Both the position numbers and the translations under genes were made by a program. From positions 1-64,000 of the forward strand of contig JAJYRQ010000009.1 of assembly GCA_021794015.1 (NCBI GenBank): 64,000 bases of DNA, written 5' to 3'. The stretch comes from Deltaproteobacteria bacterium. GTDB lineage: Bacteria > Desulfobacterota > Binatia > Binatales > Binataceae. Of the stretch, positions 59,489 to 61,421 are shown piece by piece. The first letter of the stretch is position 1. Each line of letters opens with the position of its first letter. The notes under the pieces were generated by a model. That model worked only from the letters and a program-made list of their open reading frames with translations, had not been told where the DNA came from and did not search any database.

Positions 59489-60049
59489 GGATTGCCTCCC
59501 GCGATGCCGAAGTTGTTGGCAAGATGATCGCGCGCCTTGCCGCACGCCGCAAGCCGCCATCGCAGCCGCTGCGCCCTTCGCCCCACGCCGCCCATGCCGC
59601 GCCTCGCCTTGCTGCTCAGCCTTGCGCGGGAAGAAGCGCCGCGCTGTGGCCCAATCGGCATCGCGCTCATGGGCGACAAACGCACATTGACTGACTGGTG
59701 AAACGGGGGAAAAGATCGAGGCGCGCGTTACGAAACACCTGAGCGAAGCCGAAGGTAGCGCGCGGGGTCCTTCACTTCGTTCAGGATGACAGAAGAGTTG
59801 CGACCCTCGGTTCAGGATGTCGCGACGCTCGACGAAGCCCGAAAACACTTCAAGAAAGCGCTTGCGCTGGTGTCCGAACCCGACCAGGTTCTGGCGAGCG
59901 AATCCAACCCATAACAACTAACAGCGCGGCGAATTGCTCGATGGTGGGGCCGGCCTCGGGAATAATCGACCGCAGTGTGCTGCATCCGCTTTCTTTGGCG
60001 GCGGTAGGAGCTCGGCCGGCGCTCCAGGTTTCTCGGTTTTAACCGCGCG
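59489..60049. other. Gene-poor region left of the tandem repeat array
   Basis: 561 bases with no established gene. It includes a copy of the dispersed repeat (GAGCGAAGCCGAAGGTAGCG, then CTTCACTTCGTTCAGGATGA, about 59741-59788) and a possible 42-residue open frame described separately. The remainder shows only short frames. Confidence 0.45.
59786..59914 (+). CDS. Possible 42-residue protein or gene remnant
   Basis: A short frame from ATG 59786 to TAA 59912-59914 reads TLDEARKHFKKALALVSEP in its middle, an amphipathic helix like part of a TPR-type protein. The ATG lies in a dispersed CAGGATGACAG repeat and there is no good ribosome site. It is probably a remnant rather than a working gene. No family was recognised. 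Confidence 0.25.
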   Translation: MTEELRPSVQDVATLDEARKHFKKALALVSEPDQVLASESNP

Positions 60050-60270
60050 CAAGGCGCCACGCCTCTGGTTCCCTCGCCCCCACCGGGGGATGGCAAGGCG
60101 CCGCGCCTCTGGTTCCCTCGCCCCGACCGGGAGATGGCAAGGCGCCGCGCCTCTGGTTCCCTCGCCCTCACCGGGAGATGGCAAGGCGCCGCGCCTCTGG
60201 TTCCCCTCGCCCTCACCGGGAGACGGCAAGGCGCCACGCCTCTGGTTCCCTCGCCCCCACCGGGGGCGAG
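60050..60270. repeat. 44-bp tandem repeat array, five copies
   Basis: Units begin CAAGGCGCC at 60050, 60094, 60138, 60182 and 60227. The first three are 44 bp and the fourth is 45 bp (one extra C). They differ at few positions (for example GCCACG/GCCGCG, CCCCCACC/CCTCACC). Each contains the core CTCTGGTTCCCTCGCCC and a short CCCACCGGGGG palindrome. The fifth copy continues into the left inverted repeat of the DUF559 gene. A further partial copy lies near 60972-61030. No gene spans it convincingly. Confidence 0.9.
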
Positions 60271-60287
60271 GGCTAGGGTGAGGGGGG
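60248..60287 (+). repeat. Left inverted repeat flanking the DUF559 gene
   Basis: 40 bases ending directly before the DUF559 ATG. It has an internal 11-bp hairpin (CCCTCGCCCCC 60248-60258 with GGGGGCGAGGG 60262-60272) and then CTAGGGTGAGGGGGG. Its inner 21 bases match the reverse complement of the right repeat at 19 positions. Confidence 0.85.
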
Positions 60288-60656
60288 ATGACTTCAAAGC
60301 GAAGCCACCTTGTAATCTCGCGTGCTCGCCAGTTGCGCCACGATGAAACCGCGGCCGAAAGGTTTTTGTGGAGCCGCCTGCGCCGTAGGCAGCTCGAAGG
60401 GGTCAGTTTCCGCCGCCAGCATCCGCTCGGGGGATTGGTGGTTGATTTCTGTGCGCCCCAGGAAAAGCTGGTCATCGAACTGGATGGTGGGCAGCATAAT
60501 GAAGCGGAAAATCGGCGTGCGGACGAGCAGCGTACCGGGTTACTGGCTAGGCGCGGCTACCGCGTTATACGTTTCTGGAACCACGACGTACTACAGAACC
60601 CGGAAGGAGTGCTGCTGGTGATTCGTGGGGCGTTAAGTCGTCCCCCCTCTCCCTAA
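60288..60656 (+). CDS. DUF559 (Vsr-like/restriction-type nuclease fold) protein
   Basis: 122 residues. The DUF559 pattern is complete: ARQLRHDETAAERFLWSRLR, GVSFRRQHPLGGLVVDFCAP, the catalytic-type KLVIELDGGQHNEAENR and the terminal YRVIRFWNHDVLQNPEGVL. The E-x-D/Q-H cluster resembles the active site of the Vsr/restriction endonuclease-like fold. The gene begins at the inner edge of one inverted repeat and its TAA stop lies inside the other, so it fits the repeats exactly. No ribosome site is visible apart from the G-run of the repeat. Nuclease activity is inferred. Confidence 0.85.
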   Translation: MTSKRSHLVISRARQLRHDETAAERFLWSRLRRRQLEGVSFRRQHPLGGLVVDFCAPQEKLVIELDGGQHNEAENRRADEQRTGLLARRGYRVIRFWNHDVLQNPEGVLLVIRGALSRPPSP

Positions 60657-60681
60657 CCCTCGCCCCCCGAGGGGCGAGGGG
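60642..60681 (-). repeat. Right inverted repeat flanking the DUF559 gene
   Basis: 40 bases that contain the gene's stop codon. CCCTCGCCCC (60657-60666) and GGGGCGAGGG (60671-60680) form a 10-bp hairpin. The reverse complement matches the left repeat closely, so the pair behaves like terminal inverted repeats about 394 bp apart measured outer hairpin to outer hairpin. Confidence 0.82.
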
Positions 60682-60854
60682 ACCAGAAGGGGCTCGCGGC
60701 TTTGCCGAGGCGAGGTGACGGGAGAAAGGGATTTTGTCTTTGTCGCGGCAGGAGAACCGGAGAAGGGGCTCTTCGCCGCCGAGGGGCGAGGGGACCAGAA
60801 GGGGCTCGCGGCTTTGCCGAGGCGAGGTGACGGGAGAAAGGGATTTTGTCTTTG
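60669..60854. repeat. Two direct copies of a 74-bp sequence, 112-bp period
   Basis: The blocks 60669-60742 and 60781-60854 are identical or nearly so, both containing GACCAGAAGGGGCTCGCGGC and ending GGGATTTTGTCTTTG. The first copy begins in the right inverted repeat of the DUF559 element. A 38-base spacer separates them. They likely arose by duplication within the repeat island. Confidence 0.85.
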
Positions 60855-61214
60855 CCGAGCGGCAGAGCCCGCAGAAGAAGCCTTCGCCTTTGCCGGGGGG
60901 GGACCGGGAGCTGTGGGTGCCGGCAGCGGGGACATGGGGCGGATCTCTCACTCCCTTGCTCAGGGGGGCTTTCTGTTCCCCTCGCCCCCACCGGGGGATG
61001 GCAAGGCGCCACGCCTCTGGTTCCCTCGCCCCCCAAGGGGCGAGGGCTAGGGTGAGGGGGGAACGGTTCCGAAGCGGAACCGCCAGGTGACCTTGCGTGT
61101 GGAGGTTCGAGGCGACCCGATAGACGTCGTCGGCCCTGCTGCAGAGTTCTGTGAATCATCCTCGAGTCAGCCGTTCGCGGGTGATCCAAGCGATCAAGTT
61201 TCTCAATCGGCCCA
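60855..61214. other. Remainder of the repeat island
   Basis: The 60855-60971 part is GC-rich DNA with no established gene. After the repeat unit at 60972-61061, the segment 61062-61214 shows faint similarity to the DUF559 gene start and otherwise nothing recognisable. Confidence 0.45.
60972..61061 (+). repeat. Second copy of tandem unit plus left inverted repeat, without the gene
   Basis: A partial 44-bp unit (60972-61001), a further unit from 61002 and then the hairpin CCCTCGCCCC/GGGGCGAGGG (61023-61032, 61037-61046) with CTAGGGTGAGGGGGG repeat the left boundary of the DUF559 gene in the same orientation. After it, TTCCGAAGCGG and TTGCGTGT faintly match the first bases of the DUF559 gene, suggesting a decayed second copy. 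Confidence 0.65.
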
Positions 61215-61421
61215 ATGGGGCGCGGTCAGATCGGTGAGTTGCGGCGGGCCTACAGGGAGTTCCAGTGCCGGGGTGATGTGGATGCGCTGTTGGCTGCGGT
61301 CGAGGATCTCGGCCGGTGTTTCGGCGACCCGCAGCGCGAGGCTGCAGTGCGTCGGGCGCGCCCGCCTATCGGACGCCAGGAGCTGCGGCTTGTCGGCTTC
61401 GACTTGGTGTCGGGCGGTTAG
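61215..61421 (+). CDS. Small hypothetical protein (68 residues)
   Basis: ATG 61215 to TAG 61419-61421 encodes 68 residues with two helices and a compact ending REAAVRRARPPIGRQELRLV and GFDLVSGG. The sequence looks protein-like (balanced hydrophobic and charged residues), but I do not recognise a family. There is no good ribosome site. It converges with glk, the two stops overlapping by a few bases. It could be a remnant of a larger gene carried in the repeat island. Confidence 0.4.
   Translation: MGRGQIGELRRAYREFQCRGDVDALLAAVEDLGRCFGDPQREAAVRRARPPIGRQELRLVGFDLVSGG

Follow-up and report, generated by a model that had tools for sequence, protein, structure and literature searches.

What kind of genetic unit is formed when a small nuclease gene lies exactly between two hairpin-forming inverted repeats? 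The question is raised by a locus near the end of the window analyzed here, a 64-kb stretch of one contig of a deltaproteobacterial genome (family Binataceae). An earlier note on this DNA had suggested a small mobile element or REP-like system in which a DUF559 nuclease, instead of a Y1 transposase, is linked to the hairpins. The unit and its immediate surroundings comprise the following features.

60248..60272, + strand: left terminal hairpin, 11-bp stem, 3-nt loop
60276..60287, + strand: left inner box GGGTGAGGGGGG, abutting the ATG; the same box is found in other loci
60288..60656, + strand: DUF559 (PF04480) gene with ATG at 60288, 122 amino acids, PD-(D/E)XK nuclease fold
60642..60653, + strand: right inner box CCCCCCTCTCCC, inverted partner of the left box, encoding the last codons
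60657..60680, + strand: right terminal hairpin, 10-bp stem, 4-nt loop, immediately 3' of the TAA stop
61023..61046, + strand: third hairpin of the window family, gene-less, in left-end orientation, with its inner box at 61050-61061

The order is thus hairpin, inner box, DUF559, inner box, hairpin. The two 40-bp arms (60255-60294 and 60635-60674) are inverted copies of each other, complementary at 35 of 40 positions, and counted inward, 19 of 21 inner positions match. The ATG at 60288 is placed right at the left repeat's inner edge, and the TAA at 60654-60656 serves both as stop codon and as the 3-nt spacer between CCCCCCTCTCCC and the right hairpin. The geometry described in the earlier note, including the stop codon inside the right repeat and a separate hairpin of 10 to 11 bp in each, is therefore borne out. 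Both terminal hairpins are perfect, with single-stranded folding energies of -14.6 (left) and -14.4 (right) kcal/mol and z-scores of -3.0 and -3.3, and the 64-kb window holds exactly three hairpins of this family.

The surroundings are rich in direct repeats. An array of about four 44-bp copies (GCAAGGCGCCRCGCCTCTGGTTCCCTCGCCC..) at 60049-60250 continues into the left hairpin, two more copies at 60957-61025 terminate in the third hairpin, and an 82-bp repeat at 60664-60857 (two copies, 98% identity, 112 bp apart) starts inside the right hairpin. Across 59491-61418, a class I fructose-bisphosphate aldolase gene present in 16 relatives is missing, and the stretch with the repeats and DUF559 stands in its place.

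The product of the window gene is a DUF559 protein by profile search (126.2 bits against a gathering cut-off of 20.6), which confirms the nuclease-like assignment made earlier. Its structure model (pLDDT 89) has as fold neighbors, in order, the gonococcal DUF559 protein 3HRL, the catalytic domain of the homing endonuclease I-Bth0305I (3R3P listed), and Vsr. In an alignment of 30 DUF559 sequences, E24, D53, E64, and D66 are invariant and H70 is nearly so; model and residue conservation together identify a PD-(D/E)XK fold with a conserved acidic core. DUF559 shares this fold and conserved acidic residues with Vsr and the EDxHD homing endonuclease I-Bth0305I. However, it is not phage- or intron-borne, and no hairpin ends are described for those two enzymes in the literature found. 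Phages are carriers in almost no case (2 matches in 50,697 phage records), and with the Vsr profile TIGR00632 the window protein scores 15 bits, below the cut-off of 97.85. The DUF559 phylogeny is poorly resolved. A defense-system identity of the unit was considered and set aside, as PADLOC gave weak matches to other nucleases only. In Caulobacter, the DUF559 protein VsrA triggers the SOS response if a methylase is absent, and a function as a repair enzyme has been suggested for it (PMC12907096). VsrA acts on DNA (PMC12907096), which makes DNA cutting by the family credible.

To see how far the arrangement recurs, we compared sixty DUF559 loci of other species and about twenty of relatives by an inverted-repeat score between the two gene flanks, with a threshold of 16 or more. 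Measured against 1310 same-locus controls, 40 of 59 DUF559 loci score beyond the 99th percentile, and 54/79 loci (relatives included) reach the threshold versus 2/140 neighboring open reading frames (p=4.5e-22). The pairing of DUF559 with matched hairpin ends is real and widespread, and the recurrence that the earlier note had asked for is found across phyla. The same plan of stem-loop, short spacer, C/G-rich inner box, gene, and mirror image is seen in sphingomonads, Devosia, Thiocapsa, Planctomycetota, Gastranaerophilales, Flavobacteriales, and others. The host genome itself has two DUF559 genes, both within hairpins of this class (the second at locus L001). Clear end hairpins are absent from four Rhizobiaceae loci (L038, L047, L048, and L055).

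End sequences vary from locus to locus (CCCTCTCCC, CCCCTCCCGC, CCTCCCCCG, CCCCTTCCCC, and CCCCCCCC), while left and right agree within a locus. Similarity among DUF559 proteins is paralleled by similarity among their repeats (Mantel r=0.35, p=2e-4, with host kinship not removed). Over the outer 14 nt beyond the hairpins, flanks of the same locus share 6.3 matches versus 5.8 between loci (p=0.08); left/right similarity ends at the outer hairpin edge, so that the hairpins are the ends of the unit.

Hairpins of this class are also found away from any DUF559 gene. With the pattern CCTCTCCC-N(2-10)-GGGAGAGG, and the reversed pattern as control, we find 132 hairpins in the 3.33-Mb host genome and 0 with the control. 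Many copies lie at contig ends, as is typical of repeats. At least 28 gene-less dimers are arranged head to head (inward facing), most with a conserved 32-bp center. Dimers of a second family, each exactly 37 bp long (GGTGAGGGTGCA..GCACCCTCACC), occur in seven places, at G000 C1:118-154 and on six more contigs, and are perhaps linked to the host's other DUF559 gene on C8. Copies without the gene, a further expectation of the earlier note, are thus abundant in the host as single hairpins and as dimers of both families.

The ends are GC-rich and of low complexity, and GC-rich intergenic DNA might yield hairpins anywhere by base composition. The same-locus and neighboring-gene controls, together with reversed-pattern counts near 0 against 132 in the host, refute chance as an explanation, and matched ends are present in AT-rich hosts too (Gastranaerophilales, Flavobacteriales, and Legionellaceae); we give this reading practically no weight.

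The number of hairpins shows a statistical dependence on the gene. We surveyed 297 genomes of the host's phylum, scoring those with only a fragment or a fused domain as lacking DUF559. The 63 genomes with a full DUF559 gene have a median of 7 and a mean of 21.5 hairpins, compared to a median of 0 and a mean of 3.2 in the 234 genomes without (p=1e-16). The difference persists when hairpin counts are permuted within families (p=2e-4), with 17 of 22 families showing the same direction. Exceptions occur on both sides: 9/63 DUF559 genomes are without the searched hairpin and may carry another version of it, and 15 or more hairpins occur in 17 genomes that lack a full DUF559 gene.

In some lineages the unit is kept at one place, between nrdA and nrdB in Sphingobium and near carA or dnaG in sphingomonads, behavior that would be expected of a domesticated gene. 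We also observe that the DUF559 units of L015 (Devosia) and L066 (Rhizobium) adjoin the same downstream gene, and that several sphingomonads have units near carA/carB or before dnaG; these positions reflect either common preferred sites or old vertical inheritance. Conserved placement in Sphingobium and other sphingomonads, together with the Vsr-like fold and the DNA-acting VsrA discussed as a repair protein (PMC12907096), speaks for a housekeeping or repair nuclease in repeat-rich intergenic slots, with hairpins that merely end or stabilize transcripts. However, the hairpins flank the gene on both sides, also 5' of the start codon, and form inverted copies that share a conserved inner box; more than a hundred others are scattered through the host genome. 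Transcript termination would explain neither the matching of ends within each locus nor the link between hairpin number and gene, and we consider this explanation improbable.

A counterpart of the system is present in Escherichia coli, where the DUF559 protein is YcjD (b1289), encoded between sapF and fabI. The 3' end of ycjD, including its stop codon, lies inside a hairpin, and a second, inverted copy follows about 170 bp further on. Inner box, spacer, and stem of this repeat agree with those of the window ends (approximately 30/32 non-loop positions). BoxC repeats of E. coli are 50 to 56 bp long and present in 22 to 32 copies (PMC2267715), and the ycjD-end repeat fits BoxC by sequence class, length, and copy number rather than by an annotated BoxC coordinate. 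Several gene-less inverted dimers also occur in E. coli. In ycjD-less strains, an efflux cluster adjoins sapF instead.

Counting the places matched by a query of ycjD plus BoxC, we find 14 to 31 in every one of 37 sampled ycjD-positive records, while among 22 chromosome-size records without ycjD, 14 have 2 to 5 places and 8 have 13 to 25, a contrast that is confounded with strain phylogeny. The low BoxC numbers in ycjD-negative records resemble the slow loss of REPINs after loss of a RAYT, and long-orphaned BoxC repeats may be the product of a ycjD-type system. Two E. coli records of 4.8 to 4.9 Mb that carry sapF-ycjD (NZ_OL790696.1 and NZ_CP141089.1) are labeled as plasmids and are evidently chromosomes. 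In alignments, BoxC is found in some strains and missing from others at argE-ppc, tkt-ypfG, and wzxC-wcaK; at dolP-yraQ and flgF-flgG, variation is seen in match lengths. BoxC slots (L151, L154, and L145) hold other sequence in other strains, often REP/BIME, as if the two kinds of repeat exchanged in the same intergenic slots.

The closest parallel to this organization is the REPtron of REPIN-RAYT systems, in which a nuclease gene lies between inverted hairpins and gives rise to REPIN-like derivatives (PMC3116915, PMC2817692). As in REPtrons, one small nuclease gene is flanked by two inverted hairpins in most DUF559 loci, gene-less inverted dimers of REPIN-like plan and singlets are spread across the genome, nuclease and hairpins covary, with few hairpins where the gene is absent, and the gene is usually single-copy. 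Unlike in REPtrons, the enzyme is of the PD-(D/E)XK type and not a Y1 HUH transposase, and at the ends the stem is preceded by an inner box rich in C (CCCTCACCC-TAA). The GTAG tag is found at the hairpin foot of 0/92 DUF559 ends, and any of the tags GTAG, GGAG, and CGTC at no more than 1/92. No homolog of E. coli RayT was detected in the 242 loci examined, a search that covered the host genome at its DUF559 loci. CGTC-tagged REPs, which are said to lack a transposase (PMC3733652), are likewise dispersed palindromes, but DUF559 ends are without their tag. BoxC, for which the papers found give no gene link, is here tied to ycjD, and within the open-access literature (i.e., outside subscription papers and preprints) we found no link of DUF559 or ycjD to repeats. 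In REPtrons, hairpin DNA is the substrate of the enzyme; for the DUF559 enzyme it is a candidate substrate.

Gene-bearing copies at unrelated sites, as expected of a classical insertion sequence, are seen in two genomes, G296 and G276, and not for the window's own copy. G296 contains at least four right ends (L245, L246, L265, and L268) and two left ends (L266 and L267) of one DUF559 unit, 95 to 100% identical, and beyond the same last base of each right end a different gene follows directly, placing the unit in at least four unrelated positions. In G276, several DUF559 paralogs are 78 to 89% identical from hairpin to hairpin only, with unrelated flanks. Outer terminal inverted repeats with target duplication are not a general feature, the exceptions being these same two genomes. 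In G296 an 11- to 13-bp inverted repeat, TATTGTCAAAAGT, lies beyond the hairpins. Two G276 copies (L251 and L252) are nested in elements with GGTTCTTCCG ends, which we take to be reminiscent of ISL3-family termini, and a possible 8-bp duplication, TTAAAAAG, surrounds L251. A different transposase may have mobilized the G296 copies and these two G276 copies.

These outer repeats, the possible duplication, and the alternation of E. coli BoxC slots with RAYT-type REP/BIME in other strains are what a passenger model would predict, in which DUF559 and its hairpins ride on MITEs, ISL3-like or other insertion sequences, or RAYT-type REPs moved by other transposases, and the nuclease has a different job. 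Yet the outer repeats differ between G296 and G276 and are generally absent, whereas DUF559 and the hairpins are the constant part; the searched loci are devoid of RayT homologs and their ends of GTAG; and other neighboring genes are without bracketing repeats. We regard a passenger role as unlikely, though less so than a housekeeping one.

No clean pair of insertion and empty site was found at the window locus in relatives, among G014 congeners, or at E. coli BoxC sites, and the empty sites anticipated by the earlier note did not materialize in related genomes. Sixteen relatives have the aldolase gene between enoyl-CoA hydratase and glucokinase at the window locus, evidence only that the ancestral state there lacked DUF559. 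Among the G014 congeners, G026 has a right-end hairpin only at the orthologous site and two others have none, with unlike left flanks. At E. coli BoxC sites the alternative content is other DNA, often REP, and not a bare site.

The mobile or REP-like system first suggested is partly supported: the association, the gene-less copies, the dependence of hairpin number on the gene, the lack of a RAYT in the loci, and multi-copy units have stood, and DUF559 is a candidate for the mover. We think it probable that the window unit, a single gene with hairpin ends, is a DUF559 representative of a REP-like system that is widespread and run by a PD-(D/E)XK nuclease. Co-occurrence and matched ends suggest that the nuclease mobilizes or maintains the hairpins. 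In such a scheme, the Vsr/homing-type DUF559 nuclease would recognize its own hairpin and inner-box ends, as a cruciform or in single-stranded form during replication, and would nick or cut at these ends or at a target. Host repair would then copy the unit, or a gene-less dimer, into a new intergenic site, or keep existing copies alike. Hairpins would decay once the gene is lost, and in most lineages the gene would now be single-copy and fixed in place, like domesticated RAYTs. A broader version is possible, and we put it forward tentatively: DUF559/YcjD could be the dedicated mobilizing enzyme of a second pan-bacterial REP-like superfamily that includes E. coli BoxC. A single Vsr/homing-type nuclease of the PD-(D/E)XK kind would then work on the hairpin ends and achieve transposition or gene drive without recourse to HUH, DDE, or recombinase chemistry.

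Few repeats are as common in bacterial genomes as REP-like ones, and to our knowledge those without a GTAG tag, including BoxC of E. coli, have had no known enzyme so far. The DUF559-hairpin unit appears to be a REP-type repeat system of a second kind, previously unlinked. It provides DUF559 as a candidate enzyme for these repeats and the hairpins as a candidate substrate for an abundant protein family of unknown job, and both proposals can be tested in E. coli K-12. Should they hold, the place of the HUH transposase would be taken by a restriction-type nuclease in a system that is parallel in other respects, and selfish elements would have converged.
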